Positions 1,624-64,000 of a stretch of 64,000 bases of DNA are shown piece after piece. The stretch comes from Kordiimonas sp. Its GTDB lineage: Bacteria; Pseudomonadota; Alphaproteobacteria; Sphingomonadales; Emcibacteraceae. The stretch is from the NCBI GenBank assembly GCA_002700365.1, contig PADB01000011.1:1-64000 (forward strand). The letters are read 5' to 3'. Each line of letters begins with the position of its first letter. Within the stretch, counting starts at the first letter, position 1. The notes beneath the pieces were generated by a model, which was given only the letters and a program-made list of their open reading frames with translations, was not told the DNA's origin and ran no database searches. The position numbers were made by a program, and so were the translations under genes.

Positions 1624-3309
1624 ATGATAAAAAATTTCAGTGCACGGCTTGCGACAGCAGAAGGCACATTCGCCAATTACGCCCCTGTATTACGAAAAGA
1701 TATCCTGACGGCATCGTTCATGTTGAACGGTCTTGGTTTAGCCCTGCCGATGGTCCTGTTGCAGGTCTATGACCGTATTATTCCAAACGAGGCATTAGAA
1801 ACATTAACCTTGCTTATTATTGGGCTATCCGTTGTCTTGCTTCTGGATGTGCTGTTGCGGGTCACCCGTTCCTATCTGGCCGGATGGGTTGGTGCAAAAT
1901 ATGAACATGAAACAGGCACCCGCGCCATGGAACGGTTTCTGAAGGCAGACTTAACCGCTATCGAGAAATCTGCGCCAGGCACACATTTAGATAGGTTAGG
2001 CTCCATTGATCCCCTGCGTGATTTTTACGCGAGTCAGGCTGGCCTCACTCTTGTCGACCTGCCGTTTGTCGTTCTGTTTTTAGGGCTGCTGGCCTATATC
2101 GGCGGCGCTTTAATAATTGTCCCGACATTGTTGCTGATTCTCCTGGGGGCCATCGCCATAATTTTGGGGCTGCGGCTACGACATGCCATGGAAGAACATA
2201 CAAATTGGGATGATCGCCGTTACAGTTTTATTATTGAGGCCCTTTCAGGCGTCCATACCCTCAAGGGTATGGCCATGGAGCCATTAATGGAACGCCGCTA
2301 CGAGCGGCTGATGGAAAGCTATTCTGCGGCCAATTACAATATGCTAAGCCTTAATGGACTGGCACAAGGTATTGGCAGCACATTCTCCCAGATTACGATG
2401 GTCGCCGTGGCGGCGATTGGCAGTATTCTTGTGATTCAGGGGGAGATGAGTATGGGGGCCTTGGCTGCTAGCACGCTACTGGCGGGCCGTACCGTACAAC
2501 CCTTGCTTCGCGGACTTAGCGTCTGGACCGGGTTCCAGAAAATCATGATTGCGAAAGGTAAGCTGCATCACCTGAACGACTTGCCGCAGGAACGGACAAC
2601 CACGACCCAATCCGTTCAACATGTCCGCCATATTGAATTACAGAACGTCTCTTTCCGGTATGAAGAAGACGGAGAAGACATACTCAAAGATGTCAACCTG
2701 ACATTACATCCTGGAGAGATGATCGGCATCAAGGGCAACAACGGTTCGGGCAAATCCACATTATTGTGGGCCTTGATGGGCGGACTGACACCGCAAAAAG
2801 GGCATATATTCATTAATAATCAGCCCCCACATTGTTTCAGCACAGAAAGTCTGAGAACACGCATTGCGTATTTACCACAAAAACCCGTTTTGTTTCAGGG
2901 AACCATATTGGAGAACATGACATTCTTCCGTGGCAATGATTACATTGACGAAGCATTAAAAATTGCGGAGCAGCTAAAACTGGACAAAGTGCTGGCCCGG
3001 ATGCCCGAAGGGTTTGAGACACGCATCGGCGATGCTTCATTCGAAGAATTGCCCTCAGGTGTGGCACAACGTATCGCTATTGTCCGTGCCTTAATCACCA
3101 AACCGGATGTCATTTTATTTGATGAAGCCAATTCGGGACTGGATAGCCAGGCCGATCTCGACCTGAAGCATTTAATGGAAAACCTTAAAGGGCAATGCAG
3201 CATTGCACTGGTGTCTTACCGTCCGAGTTTGCTAAACCTTGCCGATCGTATCTTTGAATTAGAAGGCGGGAGACTGACAGAAGTCCCCACCTCACAAGCC
3301 AGCGTATAA
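1624..3309 (+). CDS. Type I secretion ABC transporter subunit 1 (degenerate motifs)
   Basis: A 561-residue half-transporter: an N-terminal transmembrane domain (about residues 30-300, roughly six helices) and a C-terminal ATPase domain (about 335-555). There is no C39-like N-terminal domain, as in PrtD-type exporters. Walker A is GNNGSGKST (K377) and Walker B ends DE at 500-501. The ABC signature reads LPSGV (476-480) in place of LSGGQ, and the switch (H-loop) position is Tyr532 in the context VSYRP, where His is normal. The second ABC gene follows after 10 bp, then an HlyD-type adaptor. I infer that it pairs with the second ABC protein as a heterodimer to export the adjacent adhesin. The family is certain; the pairing is inference. 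Confidence 0.85.
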   Translation: MIKNFSARLATAEGTFANYAPVLRKDILTASFMLNGLGLALPMVLLQVYDRIIPNEALETLTLLIIGLSVVLLLDVLLRVTRSYLAGWVGAKYEHETGTRAMERFLKADLTAIEKSAPGTHLDRLGSIDPLRDFYASQAGLTLVDLPFVVLFLGLLAYIGGALIIVPTLLLILLGAIAIILGLRLRHAMEEHTNWDDRRYSFIIEALSGVHTLKGMAMEPLMERRYERLMESYSAANYNMLSLNGLAQGIGSTFSQITMVAVAAIGSILVIQGEMSMGALAASTLLAGRTVQPLLRGLSVWTGFQKIMIAKGKLHHLNDLPQERTTTTQSVQHVRHIELQNVSFRYEEDGEDILKDVNLTLHPGEMIGIKGNNGSGKSTLLWALMGGLTPQKGHIFINNQPPHCFSTESLRTRIAYLPQKPVLFQGTILENMTFFRGNDYIDEALKIAEQLKLDKVLARMPEGFETRIGDASFEELPSGVAQRIAIVRALITKPDVILFDEANSGLDSQADLDLKHLMENLKGQCSIALVSYRPSLLNLADRIFELEGGRLTEVPTSQASV

Positions 3310-3319
3310 GGACGGGCAG

Positions 3320-5635
3320 ATGTCACAATACACATCAAACCAAAACGCCCCTCAAACAGAAAAAGTGGACGGTATGACCCACACTGCCCCGACACCTGAG
3401 GCGGCGGCGCATCACCGAAAAGTCCCTAGTCCGGCGCGGAATATGATTGATCGTCTGGAAAATGATTTCCAATCCCGACCTGCGGTTACTATTGCCCCAC
3501 AAGACCAGTTGGCCCACGCCCTACATCAGGGAAAGCTGGGCGACTTCGAAGCCGCATCCCCCTTTGCAGCCTGTCTTATTCCCCTGTTGCAGGCGTTAGG
3601 CTGGCGAGGACAAATTCGGCAACTGACAGAATCTTTGCCACATTTTGCCAATGGTCTCAATCAAACAGAGTTTCGCAACACATTGGCTCATTTGGGTTAT
3701 GCAACCAAACCCGCGGATGCTGAATTAGTCCGCATTGATCCCCGGCTGTTTCCATGTCTGTTTCTGCCGGAAGATAATGACCCCTGGGTTGTTCTGGAAC
3801 GCCATGATAACCATTTCCGCATTTTTGATAGTGCCGTGCAGGCAGAACGCAACGTCCATATTGATGAGGTCTTCGGCCGGGCATATTTTGTCAGTGCTGC
3901 CCACACAAGCTTTACGGGGCAAAAAAGCGAAACTATTACAGAAGACAATTGGATCGGTGCCCTGGCGCAACGTTTCAAAGGAACGTTCCTGCAGCTTTTA
4001 TCCATTACGTTCTTACTGAATATTATGGCCCTGATGGTACCGCTGTTTATCATGTCAATTTACGATAAGGTCATCCCCTCTCAATCGACAACGGTTCTGG
4101 CTTATCTGGCCAGTGGTATACTATTGGCCATCGGCTGTGAAATCGGACTGAGGACAATTCGCGCAAAAATGATGGCCTATCTGGGGGCGCGGGTTGAAAA
4201 TATTGTGGCAAATGCAACGTTTCGGCAGCTGATGTCCCTGCCGCCACTATTGACGGAATCGGCACCAATTGGCAATCAGGTCTCACGCTTAAAAGAATTT
4301 GATACTATTCGTGACCTATTTTCCGGATCATTAATCAATGTCGCACTGGAACTGCCTTTTGTATTGCTCTTTATTGCAGTGATCGCCATCCTCGGCGGCA
4401 GTCTGGCTTTTGTCCCGGTCGTCATGATGATGCTGTTCGCCGTCATTGCCATCATCATCCTGCCCACCATGCGCAACAGCGTGAAAGAGTCCAGCAAAGC
4501 GCGTGCAGCACGTCACAGTTTCCTTGTTGAAGCCATGGGCGGGATACGCACGATCAAACAAACAGCGGGCGAAGAAAAGTGGCTGGAACGCTACCGTGAC
4601 CTGTCTGCAGAATCATCCTACCGACATTTTCGCACCTCACAAATCTCCTTACTGCTGCAAAGCCTGGCGCAAACCATCATGATGGCCGCCGGCGTTGCTA
4701 CAGTGGGCCTTGGGGTGCTGAAAGTACTGGAGGGCACCATGTCAATCGGGGCCCTGATTGCCTGTATGGCCTTGGTATGGCGCGTACTTTCACCGCTCCA
4801 GAACCTGTTCTTATCCTTAACACGGGCGGAACAGATCAAAACCAGCCTCAAACAGATTAATCAGTTAATGAAACTGAAAACGGAACGCCCCGTTGACAAT
4901 ACAGCAATCACGCAACGTCATTTTAAAGGGCGTGTTATGCTGGAACGGGTCAGTTTCCGGTATCGTGCGGATAATGAACCCGCTCTATTGGGGGTCAATG
5001 CGCGCATAGAACCGGGGGAAATGGTTGCGATCATCGGCCCTAATGCAGCAGGGAAATCAACCTTGTTGAAAATGATTGCCGGGCTGTACCGTCCACAGGC
5101 CGGGCAGGTCATTCTGGACGATATGGATATTCGCCAGATCAATCCGCTAGAACTGCGGCAGGCGTTAGGTTATGTACCGCAAATCTGCCACCTATTTCAT
5201 GGCTCCATTGCCCAAAACATCCGCCTAAGCCATCCGACGGCATCGGAAGAAGAACTTCAGGAAGCCTGTCGCCTTGCCGGGGTGCTGGACGATATTCTGG
5301 CATTGCCAAAAGGTTTTGAAACCCGCATCGGCGATCAGTCTATTCAAAAATTACCCAGTAGCTTCAAACAGCGTTTATCACTGGCCCGGGGGCTGGTTAA
5401 AAAAGCCCCTATCCTGCTATTGGATGAACCCGCCAAAACATTAGACATGGCTGGTGATGCGGCCTTTATCGAAACGCTGAAAACATTACGGGGGCAATCT
5501 ACAGTCATTATGACAACGCATCGCCCCAGCCATATCCGACTCGCAGACAAAGTCATCGTACTGGAAGCCGGCATGATGACCCATTTTGGAACCCCTGACG
5601 AGGTATTACCCCAAATATACGGGGGACAAAAATGA
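3320..5635 (+). CDS. Type I secretion ABC transporter subunit 2, LapB/HlyB-like with inactive C39-like domain
   Basis: 771 residues: a polar N-terminus, a C39-peptidase-like domain (about 70-200), a transmembrane domain (about 220-480) and an ATPase domain (about 510-765). The peptidase-like domain is catalytically dead: the usual DCG is S80-P81-F82 and the catalytic His before WVVL is Pro155. That is the pattern of HlyB/LapB-type exporters, which use this domain to bind RTX-type substrates without cleaving them. Walker A is GPNAAGKST (K579), Walker B ends DE at 702-703 and the switch His734 is present (TTHRP). The signature is degenerate (LPSSF, 678-682). AAGGA precedes the start. The stop overlaps the ATG of the adaptor gene (ATGA), so the two are translationally coupled. 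Confidence 0.88.
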   Translation: MSQYTSNQNAPQTEKVDGMTHTAPTPEAAAHHRKVPSPARNMIDRLENDFQSRPAVTIAPQDQLAHALHQGKLGDFEAASPFAACLIPLLQALGWRGQIRQLTESLPHFANGLNQTEFRNTLAHLGYATKPADAELVRIDPRLFPCLFLPEDNDPWVVLERHDNHFRIFDSAVQAERNVHIDEVFGRAYFVSAAHTSFTGQKSETITEDNWIGALAQRFKGTFLQLLSITFLLNIMALMVPLFIMSIYDKVIPSQSTTVLAYLASGILLAIGCEIGLRTIRAKMMAYLGARVENIVANATFRQLMSLPPLLTESAPIGNQVSRLKEFDTIRDLFSGSLINVALELPFVLLFIAVIAILGGSLAFVPVVMMMLFAVIAIIILPTMRNSVKESSKARAARHSFLVEAMGGIRTIKQTAGEEKWLERYRDLSAESSYRHFRTSQISLLLQSLAQTIMMAAGVATVGLGVLKVLEGTMSIGALIACMALVWRVLSPLQNLFLSLTRAEQIKTSLKQINQLMKLKTERPVDNTAITQRHFKGRVMLERVSFRYRADNEPALLGVNARIEPGEMVAIIGPNAAGKSTLLKMIAGLYRPQAGQVILDDMDIRQINPLELRQALGYVPQICHLFHGSIAQNIRLSHPTASEEELQEACRLAGVLDDILALPKGFETRIGDQSIQKLPSSFKQRLSLARGLVKKAPILLLDEPAKTLDMAGDAAFIETLKTLRGQSTVIMTTHRPSHIRLADKVIVLEAGMMTHFGTPDEVLPQIYGGQK

Positions 5636-52504: not shown

Positions 52505-55500
52505 TCATATAGCATCGTCCATTAAGGTCGAGGGCAGGACCATTAAACGGGCCTCTTCCGTCCACAATAAGGCACAATAAATTGTATGTTCCGGGTACAT
52601 TTCCTGTAACAAATAACGATAGGCCGCCATTTGGCGCACATAAGCCCGCGGTGTCTTTTCAACCGCCTGCGGGGGCGGCCGATTAGTTTTATAATCCACG
52701 ACCAGCACTTCTGTTGCCGTAACAACCAACCGGTCCACCTGGCCGGATATCGGCCGCGTCCCCATCAACCCCACCAGGGGAACTTCCGCCTGCGAGCCCG
52801 GACCGAACAAATTGGAAAATTCCTTATGCTGCAAAACATCCATGACCTCTTGCGTGTATTGTGTCACTTCTTCTGCCGACAGATCATGCATAGGGTGACG
52901 TAAATAATCCGCCGCCGCGTTCGCCTGTTGCGCAACCGGCAAATCAGGCAATCTTTCCAACAGGTGGTGTAAAAGGCGGCCACGTTGAAAACGTTTACGG
53001 TCTTCCTGCACCCGCTGCCCCGCCCGTAAGGGACTGGTCACAGATGGTTCTTCATCCAGTTGTGACGGACGCAACGGCCGCGGCGGTTCAGGCTCCGTCA
53101 CGGGATGCTTTTCCGCCCAATGTGGCAATGGCAAATCTATTATAGAATCTCTGGGACTTTGTCTCGGCTCAGGCACGTCTGCGGTCTGGTCATTGTGATA
53201 GCGTAATATAACACGTTCATCGTCATCCTGAATTTCCTGAACCCCCGGCAACGCCGCCATGCCTGTGCGGATCATTTCATACCAGCTTTGCTCTTGTGAG
53301 GAACGCGCCGTATCCCAGCCGCAGACATAAAGCCTGTCTTCTGCACGGGTCAGGGCCACATATAATAACCGCCGATATTCCTCTGCAGTAAGTTGCTTTT
53401 GCGCCTCACGTGCCTCAGCCACAACACCCACAATATTTTCACGCCGCGCAGGCCAAGCCATCAGAGGGGTCGGTTCCTGATGGCCCTGTTCAACGTTCAT
53501 CCAGCTTAGCTGTTGACGCAAAGTAGGTATCTGACAACAATCGGGCATGAACACCACTGGTGCCTGCAATCCTTTTGCGCCGTGAACGGTCATAATACGC
53601 ACTTGATCCTGGGTTTGCTCCATATCGCGTTTCACTTCGGCCTCACCCGAACTGATCCACCGCAAGAACCCCTGCAACGAAGGAACATTATTTTGTTCAT
53701 AAGCCAGCGTCAGATTTAAAAACTCATCGACCGGATCGTTCGCTTCTTCCCCCAGCCTGCTGATAAGTTGTGCCCGCCCGCCCATGGCCGTCAGTAAATA
53801 CGCATAAAATTCAAACGGCGGCGAAAAGTCTGCCCGGTCGGCAATCGCCGTCATGACGTCACGGGCCGCACCAAATCGTCTACGATCAACCTCATCAGCG
53901 TCCGGTCCAGTGCGCGATAAAAGTTTTTGCCAGAGCGTCACGCCCTGCCCCCGATCATAGGCCAGTTCAAACAGATCATCCTCATTCAGACCGACAAAAG
54001 GCGTCTTTAACATCACCGCACAGGTCAGGTCATCATCCGGCAATAAAGCAAAATTTCCAGCCGCCATCATGTCCATCACAGCCAATTGGTCTGTCAACAT
54101 CATACGGTCGCGTCCGGCAACCGGAACATTACGGTCCTTTAAGGCCCGAACCAGACTGGCTTCAAAAGCCGTACGATGCCGCACCAATACCATGATGTCA
54201 CTCGGTGTAATCGGACGCCCTTGCGATTCCAATATCTCTCCTTTATGGAGCCATTCTGCAATCACATCGGCAATACGGTGCGCCAACCGGGTTTCGGGGC
54301 TGGCAACCGCATCCTGTATGACCGGCGGATGCCACTCCGCTGGTATTTCCGTTGCAATACGCTTTTCAAGAGGCCAAAGCTCTACCTGCCCGGCCTGACC
54401 TACCCGAAAAGGCGTATGATGAATTTCTTCGTCACCAAAAGTTAATCCGACCCGCATTTCTGAAGGCGCAAACACGGCGTCGACCAAATCCAGCACCGCA
54501 GAGGTAGAACGGAAAGACAAATCCAATTGCACATCAGAAAATTGCGCGCCGCTATTTTGCGCGCGTTGCTGGAAATGATCGGCACTTTCAGCAAACTGTT
54601 TCGGTTCCGCCCCCTGAAAGCTATAAATTGACTGTTTCACATCCCCGACCGCAAAAATAGTCCGGTTTTCGGAACGCGCACTTTCCCCGGTAAAAAATTC
54701 ATTTCCCAGTGTTTTAATGATTTTCCATTGTTCCGGGTTCGTATCTTGCGCCTCATCAATCAGGATGTGGTCAATACCCCCATCAAGTTTATACAATATC
54801 CAATCGGCAACATCAGGCGTTGACAGCAATCCCATCACCGACAAAATCAAATCGCTGTAATCAAGTGTGGCATGCCGCTGTTTACTGTCCTGATAGGCCG
54901 CCATCAAGGCCTGCCCAAATTGCAATAATGCCCGCGTATTCAGGACGATATCCACGGCCTTAAGCTGACGGTGCAGATGTTGTAAACGTATGGCCTCTGC
55001 CTCCATTGCCTCACTGCCCTGTGGACTGGCCGCAGCCACCTTTTTTGTCACTAATTTGCTGCGGACCTCCCCCGCCTTGGTCAGGAAAACATCACTATAC
55101 GTCTGTAGTGAATCTAACCTCTCTTCCGGTGTGGATAACCAATGCGCCATCACAGCTGCTTTTTTCTGTTGCGCTGCCGTCCCGACTTCTTCGATGGCTT
55201 TCACAGCCTGTCGCAAACCGACGGCATTAAAACGCCCCTCCTCACAGGCGGATGTGCAAAGGGATATCCGACTGTCCTCTGGTGAAAAATCAAATGCCCG
55301 GCGCAGTAACTGCTCGGCAGCTCCAGGCGTTTTGAAACGGGCAAAAAGCCGATCCAGATGTCCTCGTTTTGCAGATAATTCCGCCACTAAGCCATGAAAA
55401 CTAAATTCTGATACTTGTTGCGTTATCTGTGCCAGAGCCTCTTCCAGCAAGGGAGCCGTATTGGTCTGGATGTTTGTCAGCACCTCATCCAGCGCCTGAC

Positions 55501-55957
55501 GCTGATAATCATTGGCGGTACGTTCATCTATGACCTGAAAATGTGGGGCCAGCCGGGCCTCTAGCGGAAATCGTCCCAACAGGGACTGGCAGAATGAATG
55601 GATCGTCTGTATCTTCAGCCCCCCCGGCACATCCAAAACCCGCACAAAAAGCTGCCGGGCCAGTGTCATATCGTCCGCTGTGGGTGCGGCACCGGTCAAG
55701 CCGGTTAGCTCCCGCCGTAGTTCATCTTCAGGGCATAAAGCCCATACCCCCAAACGGCCATTAATGCGGTTCGCCATTTCCGCCGCGGCAGCCTTTGTAA
55801 AAGTCAGACATAAGATACGTTCCGGCGGCGTCCCTCCCAGCATCAGGCGCAACACCCGGCTGGTCAGCACGAATGTTTTTCCCGTCCCCGCAGAAGCCCC
55901 CACCCAAACCGATCGTGACGGATCGCCCGCCAGCTGCTGTTCCGGGGTCTGTTTCAT
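52505..55957 (-). CDS. addA: AddA helicase-nuclease subunit
   Basis: 1150 residues from ATG at 55957, overlapping the addB stop (ATGA) with GGGGGA upstream. UvrD/Rep-type helicase: Walker A GASAGTGKTF (about 20-29), Walker B region HILIDEAQDTNPEQW, motif IV-VI segments (LDLSFRSTSAVL; TVHGAKGLQAPVVF; YVALTRAEDRLYV). The C-terminal RecB-family nuclease contains VVDYKTNRPP. With AddB it resects double-strand ends for recombination, the alphaproteobacterial counterpart of RecBCD. Confidence 0.96.
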   Translation of the reverse strand: MKQTPEQQLAGDPSRSVWVGASAGTGKTFVLTSRVLRLMLGGTPPERILCLTFTKAAAAEMANRINGRLGVWALCPEDELRRELTGLTGAAPTADDMTLARQLFVRVLDVPGGLKIQTIHSFCQSLLGRFPLEARLAPHFQVIDERTANDYQRQALDEVLTNIQTNTAPLLEEALAQITQQVSEFSFHGLVAELSAKRGHLDRLFARFKTPGAAEQLLRRAFDFSPEDSRISLCTSACEEGRFNAVGLRQAVKAIEEVGTAAQQKKAAVMAHWLSTPEERLDSLQTYSDVFLTKAGEVRSKLVTKKVAAASPQGSEAMEAEAIRLQHLHRQLKAVDIVLNTRALLQFGQALMAAYQDSKQRHATLDYSDLILSVMGLLSTPDVADWILYKLDGGIDHILIDEAQDTNPEQWKIIKTLGNEFFTGESARSENRTIFAVGDVKQSIYSFQGAEPKQFAESADHFQQRAQNSGAQFSDVQLDLSFRSTSAVLDLVDAVFAPSEMRVGLTFGDEEIHHTPFRVGQAGQVELWPLEKRIATEIPAEWHPPVIQDAVASPETRLAHRIADVIAEWLHKGEILESQGRPITPSDIMVLVRHRTAFEASLVRALKDRNVPVAGRDRMMLTDQLAVMDMMAAGNFALLPDDDLTCAVMLKTPFVGLNEDDLFELAYDRGQGVTLWQKLLSRTGPDADEVDRRRFGAARDVMTAIADRADFSPPFEFYAYLLTAMGGRAQLISRLGEEANDPVDEFLNLTLAYEQNNVPSLQGFLRWISSGEAEVKRDMEQTQDQVRIMTVHGAKGLQAPVVFMPDCCQIPTLRQQLSWMNVEQGHQEPTPLMAWPARRENIVGVVAEAREAQKQLTAEEYRRLLYVALTRAEDRLYVCGWDTARSSQEQSWYEMIRTGMAALPGVQEIQDDDERVILRYHNDQTADVPEPRQSPRDSIIDLPLPHWAEKHPVTEPEPPRPLRPSQLDEEPSVTSPLRAGQRVQEDRKRFQRGRLLHHLLERLPDLPVAQQANAAADYLRHPMHDLSAEEVTQYTQEVMDVLQHKEFSNLFGPGSQAEVPLVGLMGTRPISGQVDRLVVTATEVLVVDYKTNRPPPQAVEKTPRAYVRQMAAYRYLLQEMYPEHTIYCALLWTEEARLMVLPSTLMDDAI

Positions 55958-58900
55958 TGGTGGTCCCCCGCTTCTATGCTCCCTATCCATTCCTTCACCC
56001 GCGCCAGATGGTCATAATCACCATATCCCAACACACCGGGTCTGGGTTTAGACAAATAAGGCGTTTCTTGCCGATCGAAAGCCGCAATAAGGTCCCGCAA
56101 TCCATCGGCGGCCTTACGCCGCAATTCATCTACTGAGTCCTTTTCAGGTGTTTTTATTTCCCCTGCGGGATCGCCGCCGTGTAAACGCCAGTACGCCAAT
56201 TCAGAAACGCTGCCCGCCGGAATATCGTCAAAAGATCCGTCATGAGCCATGACCGCCTCTAATGGCAATTGCGGCGCATATCCCGCGTGTAATTGCCGGG
56301 CACTGGGCTCTTTGCCGGTTTTATAATCAATAATGCTCAGACTACCATCCTGCAAACGGTCTATTCGATCCGCTTTTGCCTTCAGGATAAAATCCCCTGC
56401 AGGGCCGGGGAAACGTTGTCTGGCCCAGACTTCTGCCCCAATCGTTTGACATCCTGCCGCCCGGCGTTCTTGTTCTTTTTCAATAAACCATGCTGCAATC
56501 TGACAATATCTTGGCCACCAGAAAGCCCAAACAGTCGGACGGGCCAAAGCCTCACCAAAGGCATCACGCCCCATTGATAAAAGCTGCTGCACACTATTCG
56601 GTGGTAACGCCCCCGGATAGGTTTTCAGGAACTTCTCCAGGGCTGCATGAATAAAGTTACCCTTCTCCAGGGCACCGGGGTCTGCATCCAGTGGGTCCAA
56701 TACGGATAGTTTTAATATTTTTTGTACATATAGGGCATAGGGATCCTGCATCCAGGTCTGTACCTGTGTCACGGATAATTCGCGGGGGCGCGCCGCCACC
56801 GGCGGGCAGGGAGCAGGGGGGGCATAAGGTCCGGCCGGACCAACTATACTTTCACCCGGAACACCAGCAGGGATCAACCGATCCAATGCCATATACCAGT
56901 CCTGCCAATTCTGCCCTGCCGATAGATTATCCCCCTGCCATAAAGCTTCTAAGCGCGCAAGCCACCGTGATCGCACTGTGGGCGCGCCATCCACCTTTTC
57001 TGACCGGATCATCACCACATCTTTTGCCCCTGCCGCCTGCAAGAAATCATGGGCCGACAAGCCTATTTTTTCTTCAAGGGGCGGCAAACCAAACTTTTCG
57101 CGCATAGGGCGGCTCATCCATGGGTCCGGGCTTGTTTCCGGCGGCCATATCCCTTCATTAAGCCCCCCCAGAATCATCAGATCTGTATGTTGCAGACGGG
57201 CTTCTAACGGCCCCCATATATGCAATCGTGCATGGCCGCCATAGGCGGGCCTGACCACCAGTCCCCCCATAAATACATCCAGCAACGCGGCATATTCCGA
57301 TGGCGGCAATGGCCCCATGTGTTCCGCAGCCAGTTGCAGTTCCTCCATCAGACGGGCCGCCTCTATCCCGTCTTCCCCCCGCCACAGGCGTTCCGCCCCG
57401 GTCTGTGTGGACGTTGCCGCCAAAGCCTCTACCATCATCAGATGAGTCTGTAGCAATTCCGCAAAGGAGGCTTCCTCTGCTGGCATAATTGCCGCAAAGG
57501 GGGCAATATGCGCGGCAATGCCCTGCCACCATGCCCCACAGGCAACCGCGGCCGCACGTTGTTTTTTGTCACGCTCTTTAATATTTTCCGCCTCATCCTC
57601 TGCGGCGGGAGAGACCATCGCTTTCAATGTGGCGGTAATGCCCCGAACTCCCGGCGCCGGCCGTGGCCCGCGCAAGACCAGCCGCTCTAAACGTCGTACG
57701 TTTTTGCGAAATAGCCCCAATTCTTCACCGCCTGCACATAATGGATGCTTCAGCGCCGCCAACAGAGCCACCGGCGCCAGATCTTCATTTATCATTTCTG
57801 CGGTTAAGCGCAGAAAACGTCCCACCGCCGTATTTAATAAAGGCGTGCCGGCGGAATCATCCACCTGAATATCCCAGCGCTGCAATTCCATCCCCACACG
57901 ACGGGCCAGATTGCGATCCGGTGTCACAAGAGCGGCCGTTTTACCCGGCGTTTCCAGAACCTCTCGCATCATCAGGGCAATAATGCCGGCCTCTTCCCGT
58001 AGGCCCGGTACATCCAGGCGCGTCACCCCGACTGCCGCCTCCTTCACCAACTTTTTGCCTTCTTCACTGTCGGTCAAATCAACCCAGTCTTGACAGGTCG
58101 CCGCGGGCCGGAAAGCATATTGGAAAAAACGGTCCCGTTGCACTGGCGCACTGGCACAACCAGCAGCCCCTACCCTATCTTCCGCAAGCCAAGGCGTCAC
58201 ATCCTCACGTTCCACATCCATATGTGACAATAACTGTTTCATGGTATATTGCGGATGTGTTGGATCTAGCTGGTCCCAACTTTGTGAGTCCATATCACAG
58301 GCAAGTCCCGGGAGGACCACATGTCCCATCGGCAATCCTGCCACGACTTTCAACAAGTCTCGCGTCGCGGGAATACTTCCTGTGGATCCCGCGGCGATGA
58401 CCGGTGTCTCCGGTGGTCTTTGCCGCCATCCTTCGGCGAATAAAGACATCAAATGATCCCGACGCGCGACTGCGTCCATATAGCCAGTTGCAATCAACAC
58501 ATCCGGCCAGCTTTCAATAAGAATTTGCAGAAAATCCAATGTTTGCTGCCAATGCGCTGCATAATCATCCGGGACCAGTGTCTCCAATTGTGCAAAAGAG
58601 AGGCGATGCGTTTGTACCTGATCCAGCAATTGCCCCAACGCCCGTGCCAAAATGGCCGCTTGTGCGCCATTGGGGATATTTTCACCCTGTGCTTTATACC
58701 AACGGCGGATAATATTCATCAGCAACATTTGCCGCTGAAGAGGGGGAATGGCCGGTGCTAAGGTTAGGTCATCACTCCCCTGGGGCAGTATGGCCCCCGA
58801 TAACAGCACCTCATCTTCGTCTACATCACCAATAGGCTGCATTCGGGGCAACATCTGCGCTTTGCCACCGGAAAGACGCAAAAAAGAGTCGCGCAAAGAA

Positions 58901-59058
58901 CGCGCGGCCCGACGGTTGGGCAATAAAATCGTCACCCGACTAAACATCAGGGGATCACCCCCGTAACGATCCTGTACCCCCTGTGCCAGGGCATCCACAA
59001 ATGAGACCCCACTGCGGATTGTATAAACAGATGTCTCGGTATATTTGCGTCGCGTCAT
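55954..59058 (-). CDS. addB: AddB helicase-nuclease subunit
   Basis: 1034 residues. The N-terminal region has the inactive-helicase pattern of AddB (VTILLPNRRAARSLRDSF, ILGGLNEGIWPP). The C-terminal nuclease (about 800-1000) has FIHAALEKFLKTYP, KADRIDRLQDGSLSIIDYKTG (quoted in part: SIIDYKTGKEPS) and QLPLEAVM. Both AddA and AddB thus retain nuclease motifs. Coupled to addA by overlap; 28 bp after the amgK-murU gene. Confidence 0.94.
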   Translation of the reverse strand: MTRRKYTETSVYTIRSGVSFVDALAQGVQDRYGGDPLMFSRVTILLPNRRAARSLRDSFLRLSGGKAQMLPRMQPIGDVDEDEVLLSGAILPQGSDDLTLAPAIPPLQRQMLLMNIIRRWYKAQGENIPNGAQAAILARALGQLLDQVQTHRLSFAQLETLVPDDYAAHWQQTLDFLQILIESWPDVLIATGYMDAVARRDHLMSLFAEGWRQRPPETPVIAAGSTGSIPATRDLLKVVAGLPMGHVVLPGLACDMDSQSWDQLDPTHPQYTMKQLLSHMDVEREDVTPWLAEDRVGAAGCASAPVQRDRFFQYAFRPAATCQDWVDLTDSEEGKKLVKEAAVGVTRLDVPGLREEAGIIALMMREVLETPGKTAALVTPDRNLARRVGMELQRWDIQVDDSAGTPLLNTAVGRFLRLTAEMINEDLAPVALLAALKHPLCAGGEELGLFRKNVRRLERLVLRGPRPAPGVRGITATLKAMVSPAAEDEAENIKERDKKQRAAAVACGAWWQGIAAHIAPFAAIMPAEEASFAELLQTHLMMVEALAATSTQTGAERLWRGEDGIEAARLMEELQLAAEHMGPLPPSEYAALLDVFMGGLVVRPAYGGHARLHIWGPLEARLQHTDLMILGGLNEGIWPPETSPDPWMSRPMREKFGLPPLEEKIGLSAHDFLQAAGAKDVVMIRSEKVDGAPTVRSRWLARLEALWQGDNLSAGQNWQDWYMALDRLIPAGVPGESIVGPAGPYAPPAPCPPVAARPRELSVTQVQTWMQDPYALYVQKILKLSVLDPLDADPGALEKGNFIHAALEKFLKTYPGALPPNSVQQLLSMGRDAFGEALARPTVWAFWWPRYCQIAAWFIEKEQERRAAGCQTIGAEVWARQRFPGPAGDFILKAKADRIDRLQDGSLSIIDYKTGKEPSARQLHAGYAPQLPLEAVMAHDGSFDDIPAGSVSELAYWRLHGGDPAGEIKTPEKDSVDELRRKAADGLRDLIAAFDRQETPYLSKPRPGVLGYGDYDHLARVKEWIGSIEAGDHQ

Positions 59059-59086: not shown

Positions 59087-60919
59087 CTATGATGTCCCGT
59101 CCCCCCGTTTAAGGATTGCTGTGACCTTATCCACCATATCGGGCGTTCCAACATGATACCAGTCTCCCTGATGCACGATGCCATACAAACGGCCTTGTTC
59201 CTGGGCGTTCTCGAAGACACGACGTAAGGAAAACGGTTTATCATCAAAACCGGATAACACCCGCGGATGCATCATTTGTATTCCGGTAAAAACATAAGAT
59301 TCCTTTTCACCATCATCATAAAAGGACAGCTTGCGGGCAGAATGGTGGGCGATGCCTTTTGCGGCCCCCTTCTCAATATCCGCCTGATGAATATCCACAT
59401 GAGGTTCTTCATAGTCCTCCATATGGAAGTCCCCAGCACCTTGATATCCTACGGCGTCTGCACAGGGGATCAGCAACATCAGTACGTCCATCTCCCCCTC
59501 CCGCCAATGAGAGGCCAACCGCTGTAATGTCAGCATCTCTCCATCCGTCCAGATCATATCACTGTTTAATACGAAAAAGGGATGTTCCGTACCCAGATAG
59601 GGTAAGGCCTGTACCACGCCGCCGCCACTGTCTTTTAGCGCAGCACGCTCATCAGAAAGTGTAATACGCGGAGGGGCCGGGCGGCACGCCACAAACGCCG
59701 CCATCATATCGGCTTTATAATGCATATTGACAACAACATCCGTCACACCATTTGCCCGTAACTGATCCAAACTGTGATCCAGCAATGTGCGTCCGGCAAC
59801 CATCACTAACGGTTTAGGCCGGTCATGGGTCAAAGGTTGCATCCTGGTGCCAAGGCCCGCCGCCAATACCATCGCTTTACCAGGCCAAAGAGGCCGGGGC
59901 GATATGACACTTTGTCTTGTCTTTTGCGGGACATGTTCATCGAACCAGTCTTTCAGGGCGGACAGCATGGGATGCTGCAAATCCCGTTGCAAGAGCCCCC
60001 AGACCCGCGGCAATAGGTCCAGATATTGCTTCTTTTCATCTCGCAGACATAGTCTCGCAAAAATGCCGATAATTTTTGTGTTACGTTGCGCACCCAGTAC
60101 GGCATAATCACGTCGAAAGGGTTCTTCTGCGACACCCGATTGTAAAATGTAATGTACGAGCATCTGTTGTTCCAGAACGGCAGGTACATCCCGCCGGGCA
60201 TCTTGCAACAACGATACCAAATCGTAAGCCCGATGGCCGATAACGGCATCCTGAAAATCCAATAGCCCCACGCGTTTTAGATCTTTATACGCAGGCAGCC
60301 ACAATAAATTTTCCGCATGATAATCCCGCAACACCAGAACATGGGGGTCTGGCAACGCCACATCCGCTAAAATATCACGCCATAGGCGCATAAATTCTGC
60401 ACGCACAGCGGGGGGCGTCACCCGCCCTGTCACGGCAGGCAAGTACCAGTCTGTAAAAAGACCCACTTCTTTCAGCAACAAGGACAGATCATATAACGGC
60501 AGGGAATAGACGGCTGTGCCATCCACCTGTAGATCCATCTCCAGCGGCCTGTCCTGAAGCCCCAATAAGACGTCAACGGCAGCGGTATAAAGTGCTTTTT
60601 CTGCTGCCGGAAAACGTTCAACATAACGGGCGTATAAGTCATCCCCCAAATCTTCCAAAAGCAAAAAGCCCTGTGTCAGATCCGCAGCCAATACACCGGG
60701 TGGCTTAAAATCCATATGTTCCAGATAACGGGCAATGGCTACAAAGGGGGCGCAGTTCTCTGCCGGTGGCGGGGCATCCATTAACACAGCCTGATCCGCC
60801 CCCCTGTATACACGATAATAACGCCTGAAAGACGCATCCCCGGCCAGCGGTTTGATCTCTGCCGCCTGCCATCCTGCGTGCTCCAGGAAGAGTTCTATGG
60901 CCGCGGTTCTTGCTGTCAT
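59087..60919 (-). CDS. Fused AmgK-MurU: sugar kinase plus nucleotidyltransferase
   Basis: 610 residues from ATG at 60919, overlapping the tsaE stop (ATGA) with GAGGGG upstream. Residues about 1-335 form an aminoglycoside-phosphotransferase-like kinase (LVLRDYHAENLLW catalytic loop, LLDFQDAVIGHRAYDLVSL metal site), as in AmgK, which phosphorylates MurNAc/GlcNAc at C1. From about 348 comes a nucleotidyltransferase (MVLAAGLGTRMQPLTHDRPK), as in MurU, which makes UDP-MurNAc. Together they form the cell-wall recycling bypass of MurA. The two are usually separate adjacent genes; here one uninterrupted frame joins them by a short Pro-rich linker (SVISPRPLWPGKA). Confidence 0.9.
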   Translation of the reverse strand: MTARTAAIELFLEHAGWQAAEIKPLAGDASFRRYYRVYRGADQAVLMDAPPPAENCAPFVAIARYLEHMDFKPPGVLAADLTQGFLLLEDLGDDLYARYVERFPAAEKALYTAAVDVLLGLQDRPLEMDLQVDGTAVYSLPLYDLSLLLKEVGLFTDWYLPAVTGRVTPPAVRAEFMRLWRDILADVALPDPHVLVLRDYHAENLLWLPAYKDLKRVGLLDFQDAVIGHRAYDLVSLLQDARRDVPAVLEQQMLVHYILQSGVAEEPFRRDYAVLGAQRNTKIIGIFARLCLRDEKKQYLDLLPRVWGLLQRDLQHPMLSALKDWFDEHVPQKTRQSVISPRPLWPGKAMVLAAGLGTRMQPLTHDRPKPLVMVAGRTLLDHSLDQLRANGVTDVVVNMHYKADMMAAFVACRPAPPRITLSDERAALKDSGGGVVQALPYLGTEHPFFVLNSDMIWTDGEMLTLQRLASHWREGEMDVLMLLIPCADAVGYQGAGDFHMEDYEEPHVDIHQADIEKGAAKGIAHHSARKLSFYDDGEKESYVFTGIQMMHPRVLSGFDDKPFSLRRVFENAQEQGRLYGIVHQGDWYHVGTPDMVDKVTAILKRGDGTS

Positions 60920-61446
60920 TTCTGCCCCTCTTCGGCCGTCTCCGCCCCGCACCAACCTTGTTCTTGCGCAATCCACCCAAGGCGATCCTGCCACGCTCCA
61001 TAACCGGCTAACATAATTTCACGCTGCCCGTCCTGCGCCGTCATGCGGATTTCTATTTTCAGAAAATCATCGGGCAGGTAACTTCCTAACCTGTCTGGCC
61101 ATTCAATCACGGTTACCGCCTCTTCCAGGGCCTGCTCATACCCCAGTTCCGGCAATTCATCTTCAGACTCTAATCGATAGAGGTCAAAATGCCAGACGGG
61201 GGGGCAATCCCCCCTATCCACGGGAGGCTCATAAACCAGAACGAGATTAAATGTCGGACTGGGGACCTCATCATCATAGCCCATGGACTGAATAAGCGCG
61301 CGGGCGAACGCTGTTTTACCAGCCCCTAATGTCCCCACCAACAGCACGACATCGCCAATCTGCAAATATTCTGACAGCTTTGTCGCCAAATCCTGCGTTT
61401 GCGACAATGAATTCTGCAATTGCACATATGAAGACGCTGCCACCAC
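60916..61446 (-). CDS. tsaE: tRNA threonylcarbamoyladenosine synthesis ATPase TsaE
   Basis: 176 residues, one of two adjacent GTG start codons (61446/61443) after AAGGATAAGG. P-loop VGTLGAGKTAFARAL (about 37-51), SPTFNLVLVYE, and FDLYRLESEDELPELGYE, typical of TsaE, which drives t6A37 synthesis with TsaB/TsaD. Overlaps the start of amgK-murU. Confidence 0.95.
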   Translation of the reverse strand: MVAASSYVQLQNSLSQTQDLATKLSEYLQIGDVVLLVGTLGAGKTAFARALIQSMGYDDEVPSPTFNLVLVYEPPVDRGDCPPVWHFDLYRLESEDELPELGYEQALEEAVTVIEWPDRLGSYLPDDFLKIEIRMTAQDGQREIMLAGYGAWQDRLGWIAQEQGWCGAETAEEGQK

Positions 61447-61540: not shown

Positions 61541-64000
61541 TCAGGACAGGCCCGCCGTTAATTCTTGTTGAAAGCCCCCATCTGCGACCGTTGCCTGTGC
61601 GGGATTACGCGGAAGTTTACAAATTACCTTTGTCCCATGTCCTAATTCCGACTGTAATTCCACCTGCCCGCCATGCAGTTCCGTGAAACTTTTTACCAAC
61701 GACAAACCCAATCCCGCTCCAAGCCCCTTCGGGGTATTGCTCCCGGTCTGGAATTTATCAAAAACCACTTCGCACTCTGCTTTGGGAATGCCAATGCCGT
61801 TGTCCTGTACAAACAGTCGCATGGCGTCCTTTTCCTGCCGGGCGCCAATGACAACAACACCCCCCTCGCCCGTGAACTTTATCGCATTGCTAAGCAGATT
61901 ATACAAAATCTGATGTAATCTACGTCGATCCGCCGTAACCGTCTTCAGGTTTTCCGGAATATCCCTGTCCAGTTTGATGCCTTTTTGTGTCAGGTTTTCC
62001 TGCACCGTGTTCGCAACATCCGTCACGAGATCCGTCAGATCAAAATCTGAATATTCCAACGTCAAACCGCCTGCTTCGATCACTGTCAGGTCAAGGATAT
62101 CATTGATTAAGCTTAATAAATGGTCCGACGCCTGCAATATATTGCTAACGTATTGATGTTGATCTTTATTCAACGGGCCCTGATATTCCTGCTGCATTAA
62201 TTCCGCAAAGCCAATGACGCTATTTAACGGGTTACGCAACTCATATGACATATGAGCCAAGAATTCCGATTTGAGACGGTCTGTCGCTTCCAATGCCAGA
62301 TTACGTTCACGCAATGCCGTTTCAATACGAATACTGTCCGTAACATCCAGATAGGTCATCAACGTCGCCCCGTCAGGCAAGGGTACCGCAGAAAAATCAA
62401 TCACCGTTTCGTCAGGGCGGCGCAAACGGCCTGACGCTAATTTCCGTCCGGTGTCATCCCCCAAAACCTGACCCCACATTTCGTCACGTTCTGCCGGCGA
62501 CGAAAACAAATCCTGGCATTGCAACAAAACATCTGAAATATGTGGCTGTTCTGCCAGAAAGTCTGGCGATAGTTTCCAGATATCGGCAAATGCCGGGTTA
62601 TATAATTCCAACGTCCCGTCCACCGCATACACCGCAACGCCTTCATGCAGGTTATTAAGTGTTTCATGCTGAACGGCAAATAATGTGTTATAGGACCGTT
62701 CCAACGCCAAACGGTCGGTAACGTCTTCAAACAAAAACAATAAGCCGCCCAAGGGATGCGGCTGGATAACCACACGCAAGGTTGTGTTATCCGGCAAATG
62801 CCACATTTCCTCACGAGGCTCTAACAGTTCCGTGTAAAAGGTAAGCTGCTGCCGTTTCCAGGCTGGAAAGTCTGCTTGCTCCGGTAGTCTGCGGTTTTCA
62901 CGCATCAACTCCAATAGCTCGGTATGCAATGGCTGACTGGACAACACACCCTCATCCAATCCCCATAACCGTGAAAAGGCACTATTATAAAAATTCAGCG
63001 TCTTATCTGGCCCAAAGATTGCCACCGCCGTAGACAGCTTATCCAGCGTCTCTGCATTGGCCTCATCGAAACGGGTCAATTGCGCGATCGCCTCTTCCAG
63101 GTCGGTAACATCTTCCGCATAACAAACCATGCCCAATGGCCTGTCATCATTAGGCGAGAACAGCGGCAAATTATGTACACGCACTGCGCGGCGTGAACCG
63201 CCGATCACCACAAAATGCTGCTCAACATATTCCTGACGGTTTTTAAGAGCGGCTTGTCCTCGCTCCCGCCCTTCGTTATTCAACATAGTGGGCACTAATT
63301 CTTGCCGGTGCCGTAACACGCTTTCTGTATTTCGTGCTTCCACAGCCTTTACATAGGCCTGGTTAACCCACGATAAATTAAGGTCCGCATCGCGCAGCCA
63401 AATCGGCAGGGAAATTTCGTCAGCAACCTGTTGTAAGTGGTCTTTTTCTGCTGCCATAACCGACAAACGGTCTTCCCGGCTGTCAACCACCTGTTTCTGT
63501 AAAGTCAGGTCTGTAAACCAGACGATATAATGTGCTGCCTCACTTCCCGCTACCCAGACCGTCTTTCCCGCCGCCTCGAAAACTTTTTTGCGGCTGTGGT
63601 CTTGTAACAGGTAACTAAAACTATGACCTTCACCTCTTAACCGACGCACGGCCCGGGCTAATTGTTCATAGCTTTTATGATCGAAGCCCGAAAGCGCATC
63701 CTGTCCTTTCAGGTCCGACAGGCGACCCACAGGCTTCGGCAATGACAGCCATTCCGCCAGCAAGGGACTGGCGGCCATATTGTCATTTTCATCCCAGAAC
63801 AAAAAGGCATTGTCCGATGATTTCATCAGGGCCAAAGCCGCCAAGATTTGCTGTTGCTGTGTTGAAAGGGTCTCAACCGCCTTTTGGCGCATCCGTAAAT
63901 GATAGAAGGCCAGCCCCAGACTACCAACGATAAGGCATAGTAAAATTATCAGGCCGACTTCATCCAGGAAATAGGCTGACCCGGCATCTGCTCCCGCACC
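61541..64000 (-). CDS. divL: DivL-type PAS sensor kinase, Tyr at phosphoacceptor (5' end outside window)
   Basis: The frame is open to the right edge. An internal ATG at 63892 is preceded in frame by 36 more codons encoding a transmembrane helix (LIILLCLIVGSLGLAFYHL), so the true start lies beyond 64000. Visible part 819 residues: the helix, several PAS domains, HisKA and HATPase (LLSNAIKFTGEGG, GIGIPKAE, GLGAGLGLSLV). The HisKA motif reads AHMSYELRNPLNS: Tyr (codon 62243-62245) where kinases have His. This is the hallmark of DivL, which modulates CckA and hence CtrA in Caulobacter. The position next to tsaE is also as in Caulobacter. Confidence 0.9.
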   Translation of the reverse strand, partial: GAGADAGSAYFLDEVGLIILLCLIVGSLGLAFYHLRMRQKAVETLSTQQQQILAALALMKSSDNAFLFWDENDNMAASPLLAEWLSLPKPVGRLSDLKGQDALSGFDHKSYEQLARAVRRLRGEGHSFSYLLQDHSRKKVFEAAGKTVWVAGSEAAHYIVWFTDLTLQKQVVDSREDRLSVMAAEKDHLQQVADEISLPIWLRDADLNLSWVNQAYVKAVEARNTESVLRHRQELVPTMLNNEGRERGQAALKNRQEYVEQHFVVIGGSRRAVRVHNLPLFSPNDDRPLGMVCYAEDVTDLEEAIAQLTRFDEANAETLDKLSTAVAIFGPDKTLNFYNSAFSRLWGLDEGVLSSQPLHTELLELMRENRRLPEQADFPAWKRQQLTFYTELLEPREEMWHLPDNTTLRVVIQPHPLGGLLFLFEDVTDRLALERSYNTLFAVQHETLNNLHEGVAVYAVDGTLELYNPAFADIWKLSPDFLAEQPHISDVLLQCQDLFSSPAERDEMWGQVLGDDTGRKLASGRLRRPDETVIDFSAVPLPDGATLMTYLDVTDSIRIETALRERNLALEATDRLKSEFLAHMSYELRNPLNSVIGFAELMQQEYQGPLNKDQHQYVSNILQASDHLLSLINDILDLTVIEAGGLTLEYSDFDLTDLVTDVANTVQENLTQKGIKLDRDIPENLKTVTADRRRLHQILYNLLSNAIKFTGEGGVVVIGARQEKDAMRLFVQDNGIGIPKAECEVVFDKFQTGSNTPKGLGAGLGLSLVKSFTELHGGQVELQSELGHGTKVICKLPRNPAQATVADGGFQQELTAGLS

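Follow-up and report, generated by a model that had tools for sequence, protein, structure and literature searches.

A two-domain gene in a conserved cluster

The window (the whole 64,000-nucleotide stretch of DNA analysed here) contains a fused amgK-murU gene at 59087-60919 on the minus strand, running from an ATG at 60919 through 610 codons to a TAG stop at 59089-59087. A preliminary description had the coordinates right but left out the strand; the plus-strand reading of the same interval has many stops. Upstream is tsaE (60916..61446, minus strand; Pfam TsaE, E 4.3e-37), which overlaps the fusion start by four bases (ATGA), and next downstream are addB (55954..59058, minus strand; TIGR02786, 986 bits) and addA (52505..55990, minus strand; TIGR02784, 1258 bits). 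A PAS-domain sensor histidine kinase lies directly upstream of tsaE, at 61541-63892 on the same strand. Among the 179 non-identical loci compared, tsaE is present on the same strand in 172 and addB in 162, some of the loci lacking them being cut short at a contig end or at the limits of the extracted stretch; these loci are good matches to a fused query, not a random sample. The cluster around the fusion is thus conserved, with amgK and murU as neighbours in the normal case.

The predicted protein has two domains: an AmgK-type kinase domain of APH fold, residues 1 to ~335 (59915..60919, minus strand), and a MurU-type uridylyltransferase domain, residues 347-610 (59090..59881, minus strand). 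Pfam places APH at residues 21-257 (E 7.4e-25) and NTP_transferase at 348-486 (E 2.7e-15), and NCBIfam ranks AmgK first for the N-terminal half (282 bits) and MurU first for the C-terminal half (209 bits). Each half falls below both of its NCBIfam cut-offs: 282 of 500 and 143 of 550 bits for the AmgK equivalogs, 209 of 370 and 138 of 250 bits for MurU. This shortfall is not peculiar to the window protein, because the separate AmgK and MurU proteins of Sphingobium, Rhodovulum and a Hirschia MAG also fall short, as does another fused protein (one tested). The NCBIfam MurU model NF045697 is of the equivalog_domain type, which may mean that its curators already allow for MurU within longer proteins.

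Structural comparisons point the same way. Among solved structures, the best sequence matches are 3csv (an aminoglycoside-phosphotransferase-like protein from Silicibacter) over residues 1-323 and MurU 8hhd over 348-501 and 542-603. A fold search with the predicted model matched the kinase half to 3csv (Z 39.5 over residues 3-342) and the MurU half to 4y7u (Z 30.1 over 347-608; 1.7 A over 222 residues), with MurU entries outranking other nucleotidyltransferases among the matches listed. The first half has an APH kinase fold with the catalytic-loop Asp/Asn and a second Asp motif, and the second half a nucleotidyltransferase fold closest to solved MurU. The matches listed are to single domains alone, and a two-domain entry may still exist.

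The motif LRDYHAEN (residues 197-204; 60308..60331, minus strand) is presumably the kinase catalytic loop; in 122 aligned rows, D199 and N204 are conserved in all and H201 in 121. DFQD (residues 221-224; 60248..60259, minus strand), which we take to be metal-binding, keeps D221 in 122 and D224 in 118 of the same rows. In the second domain, translation and residue conservation mark the stretch AAGLGTRMQPLTHDRPKPL (residues 353-371; 59807..59863, minus strand), which we take to be the nucleotide-binding signature. All 17 rows of the main fused clade (the family of the window genome plus its sister family f4) keep D199, H201, N204, D221, D224, G355, G357, R359, K369 and D454, residues presumed to be catalytic, and the idea that one active site has been lost was rejected on this ground. 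Pfam, NCBIfam and residue conservation thus agree with the preliminary description that AmgK and MurU domains with intact motifs share one 610-residue frame.

Three smaller features of the MurU domain deserve mention. The Asp of a WxDxGT motif in the solved MurU chains 8hhd and 4y7t is replaced by His589 in the window protein; the possibility that a metal ligand had been lost specifically in the fusion was considered and rejected, His being common at this position in unfused MurU as well (64 of 99 rows). Residue 431 is Ser in 17/17 main-clade rows and Thr in 93/99 unfused ones, and may serve as a mild marker of the main fused clade. Finally, alignment of the fused proteins reveals an insertion of ~25 residues in the window protein (59333..59407, minus strand), missing from the 21 other aligned fused proteins, with a few extra residues there in one; AlphaFold2 confidence is low at residues 506-509 and 518-525, at this insertion.

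Reality, spread and origin of the junction

Could the joined frame be an artefact, a sequencing or assembly error having deleted a stop and a start? The preliminary description had raised this for 59880-59930, which is the inter-domain join and is open in the window. No frameshift was found there: in 26 of 31 same-family relatives a frame crosses the junction, 22 of them having one frame over both domains and four (G009, G012, G015, G029) a partial frame, and the other five (G005, G010, G016, G020, G031) lack a usable locus. Split orthologues, which would have argued for an error, are likewise absent from the 31 same-family relatives, 26 of them informative. In the sister family f4, three of four genomes carry the fusion; the fourth (88% complete) has no match. 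An error was therefore rejected through the relatives and deserves next to no credence. The join is real and old in this bacterial family, and the observation as a whole is confirmed.

The junction itself, residues 336-346 (59882..59914, minus strand), is economical. Separate AmgK proteins stop at the equivalent of window residue 344 (median), and separate MurU matches start at the equivalent of 346-349 in 116 of 144 separate loci, so the fusion adds no linker. At most separate loci no more than 60 bases separate the amgK stop from the point where the MurU match starts, and murU already shares the amgK reading frame in 21 of the 144; a lost stop or a slight shift of frame suffices to create the fusion. 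The window gene would have arisen in this way, the short gap that separates neighbouring amgK and murU in a tsaE-amgK-murU-addB-addA cluster having disappeared.

A domain search across alphaproteobacteria, suggested in the preliminary description, placed the fusion in its own family, in f4 and in scattered others, with most loci examined separate. The genes are separate in 144 of 181 loci, these being good matches to a fused query and not a random sample, and at most other alphaproteobacterial loci examined they are neighbours in a tsaE-amgK-murU-addB cluster. In the genomes read from five other families of the same order (f2, f3, f6, f7, f8) they are separate and adjacent, with one exception in f2 (G059), which is fused, on a contig without the gene start. 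A sixth family of the order, f5, departs from the adjacency usual elsewhere: in four of its five genomes (G035, G041, G047, G052) amgK and murU are far apart or on different contigs, and the fifth has no match. A class-wide sample of 387 genomes gave at least four beyond the window's own genome with an uninterrupted two-domain frame (G242, G293, G369, G075), and G574 was the sole addition among the matches listed for a phylum-wide sample of 299. The locus search used the aligned fused proteins as query, with the best 80 loci kept; with the window protein alone as query it found no relative.

On a 122-row tree built from the AmgK and MurU columns, the fused and separate states change seven times, as against a mean of 21.2 when states are shuffled. 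A 46-row tree also has seven changes, at least six of them forced by well-supported branches, and in none of its 200 bootstrap trees do the fused rows form one group; gain and loss are indistinguishable in these counts. The main clade is one group in both trees, with an SH-aLRT of 96 in the larger and bootstrap 91 / SH-aLRT 89, below the tool's star threshold, in the smaller. One fused row (L033) is on a long branch and of unsure placement. These topologies suggest that AmgK-MurU fusion has recurred, repeated fusion being the simpler reading because the separate state is that of the 144 loci above and of the characterised systems. The window fusion itself would most likely have a single origin, in the common ancestor of its family and f4.

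A putative MurNAc salvage enzyme

The fusion is very probably an enzyme of peptidoglycan recycling with two activities. Its N-terminal AmgK domain would phosphorylate free MurNAc at C1 with ATP, and the C-terminal MurU domain would join the resulting MurNAc 1-phosphate to UTP, giving UDP-MurNAc and pyrophosphate. The UDP-MurNAc would then enter peptidoglycan synthesis past the fosfomycin-sensitive MurA step. As parts of one chain, the two domains would be made in equal amounts.

The genome offers likely partners. It encodes AnmK (304 bits), an AmpG-type transporter (477 bits) and a candidate MupP, a HAD phosphatase of 248 residues whose gene is divergent from glmU. On the MupP model this candidate reaches 98 bits, where the cut-off is 359; it does better on phosphoglycolate phosphatase models, where it is also below the cut-offs. 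No MurQ match exceeds the cut-off in this genome: the sole match, of 29 bits, falls within a 613-codon frame that lies next to glmU and is GlmS-like at the start of its translation. With AnmK, the AmpG-type transporter and a MupP candidate present and MurQ not found, the fusion is likely to serve to convert MurNAc to UDP-MurNAc within a single chain. A plausible route would run from anhydro-MurNAc to MurNAc 6-phosphate, MurNAc and UDP-MurNAc, the last two steps being carried out on the fusion.

An alternative is that the protein activates some other amino sugar, GlcNAc or a surface-glycan hexosamine, instead of MurNAc. The AmgK family name spans both MurNAc and GlcNAc, and in one relative (G003) another AmgK, not fused, is encoded close to a stand-alone GlmU N-terminal-like protein within another gene cluster, so that pairs of this sort may have other uses; against this, the closest nucleotidyltransferase models and structures are those of MurU, and AnmK, the AmpG-type transporter and the MupP candidate are all present. 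Activation of another sugar is in our view quite improbable. In G003 the AmgK paralogue is at L208:7932-8942 and the GlmU N-terminal-like protein at 2809-3627, among genes named by eye as aldehyde dehydrogenases, a saccharopine-dehydrogenase-like protein and a glycosyltransferase; this cluster is maybe another nucleotide-sugar route.

Work on alphaproteobacteria with separate genes bears on MurNAc salvage as the preferred role. The choice of MupP candidate rests on its HAD family and on its neighbourhood, which resembles that of C. crescentus, where, in the part of the source available, MupP and GlmU have neighbouring locus numbers (CCNA_02390/02389; PMC13046382). The same portion of that source reports that deletion of amgK raises both MurNAc and fosfomycin sensitivity, and an excerpt of an A. 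tumefaciens Tn-seq study names amgK and murU in a fosfomycin screen (PMC9790009). The preliminary description's statement that separate genes are the described form is borne out by the sections available for both species: CCNA_03649/03650 in C. crescentus (PMC13046382) and Atu0026/Atu0025 in A. tumefaciens (PMC9790009). The window protein shares both domains, their motifs and probably its pathway partners with the MurNAc salvage systems of Pseudomonas, Caulobacter and Agrobacterium; there, according to the same partial texts, AmgK and MurU are described as two proteins, whereas here they are one chain. A natural AmgK-MurU fusion was not found described in the portions available of PMC13046382, PMC11980594, PMC5371407, PMC5371409, PMC13041923, PMC12346966 and PMC9790009, most subscription literature being outside the search.

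Repeated fusion along one operon

AmgK-MurU is not the only fusion in this cluster. TsaE-AmgK fusions occur in 7 of the 179 non-identical loci and in 25 of 28 further loci, the latter chosen for long frames or as matches in one genus and including one that repeats a genome of the larger set. TsaE is a tRNA-modification ATPase from outside the MurNAc pathway, so that such a fusion joins a tRNA-modification ATPase to a cell-wall sugar kinase. Among 13 loci with long open frames around AmgK, ten have TsaE and AmgK in one frame and three do not; none has a further AmgK-MurU fusion. TsaE-AmgK with a separate MurU is found in several alphaproteobacterial families (L163, L169, L170, L186, L046, L048, L209-L211, L214-L220, L225-L236). 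In one genus, 3 of 61 genomes have TsaE-AmgK-MurU triple frames (L162/L223 in G574, L222 in G737, L224 in G710): the one tested by Pfam has all three domains, and the MurU end of L224 looks frameshifted. These proteins share the operon and the kinase with the window fusion, and differ in their extra ATPase domain and, in most, in a separate MurU. A murU-addB fusion was not seen in any of the 179 loci. Repeated fusion along one operon, triples included, is more interesting than the single AmgK-MurU case. Literature searches for TsaE with AmgK, or for a TsaE-phosphotransferase fusion in alphaproteobacteria, gave no match, most subscription literature being outside their reach; terms for these families were without match in the available part of the main text of PMC4921024.

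What, then, does joining AmgK to MurU achieve? One possibility, compatible with a bifunctional enzyme and towards which we lean slightly, is that it brings no catalytic benefit: near-touching operon genes would fuse occasionally, the product being tolerated or only aiding co-expression. The TsaE-AmgK fusions and triple frames of the same operon fit such an origin, since fusion in this operon evidently needs no shared intermediate; so do the short gaps and occasional shared frame at separate loci, and the join without added linker. Less easily accommodated are the constancy of the fused form in the 26 informative same-family relatives, its recurrence on the tree (seven changes, six forced), the lack of murU-addB fusions, and the predicted structure. 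For the window protein AlphaFold2 gives a mean pLDDT of 93.2 and a pTM of 0.90; in the blocks spanning residues 331-350 pLDDT is 97 and 93. For a pair of separate Hirschia genes, read through the intervening stop and modelled from nearly the same alignment, the values are 90.2 and 0.69, with 53 and 45 over the join; one case of each was modelled, and the Hirschia control has a longer join, an internal stretch of low confidence and a loose tail, all features that lower pTM. The models suggest, as a hint only, a preferred domain arrangement in the fusion.

The preliminary description had gone further, proposing that a fusion would channel the sugar 1-phosphate, which it took to be labile; here this would mean passage of MurNAc 1-phosphate between the active sites of the kinase and the uridylyltransferase. 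Two consecutive steps in one chain, the recurrence of the fusion and its confidently predicted junction would all suit channelling. There is also an analogy with L-fucokinase/GDP-fucose pyrophosphorylase, the closest published analogue found, in which a sugar 1-kinase and a nucleotidyltransferase in one chain make a nucleotide sugar from a salvaged sugar. Sugar and nucleotide differ from those of AmgK-MurU, the kinase family is unrelated and the protein is larger. HldE, a heptose kinase/adenylyltransferase, likewise pairs a kinase with a nucleotidyltransferase, as one chain in some bacteria and as two proteins in others, with unrelated enzyme families and substrate. In the available part of PMC12732313, the authors of the fucose work discuss inter-domain communication and favour one fusion event, whereas AmgK-MurU fusion recurs; the terms “substrate channel” and “channeling” are confined there to the reference list, and the word “channel” is absent from the part available of the FKP structure paper. 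The same operon also fuses AmgK to TsaE, an unrelated protein from outside the pathway. Channelling seems doubtful and, as a claim, was not supported; the interpretation in the preliminary description is upheld in part. The boldest version, in which a repeatedly evolved fusion with a fixed domain arrangement hands MurNAc 1-phosphate over directly and gives the whole family a one-protein bypass of the fosfomycin target, is unlikely.

Independently of channelling, the gene is a real and old fusion that joins two known enzymes and looks functional. It is a candidate single-chain enzyme from MurNAc to UDP-MurNAc, for biochemistry and for labelling cell walls with modified MurNAc, a purpose for which E. 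coli is at present made to express amgK and murU, according to the part of PMC13041923 available. Six or seven apparently independent fusions, with unfused close relatives, may also be viewed as a natural experiment: does joining consecutive enzymes change flux, or does it simply follow from adjacency in an operon?
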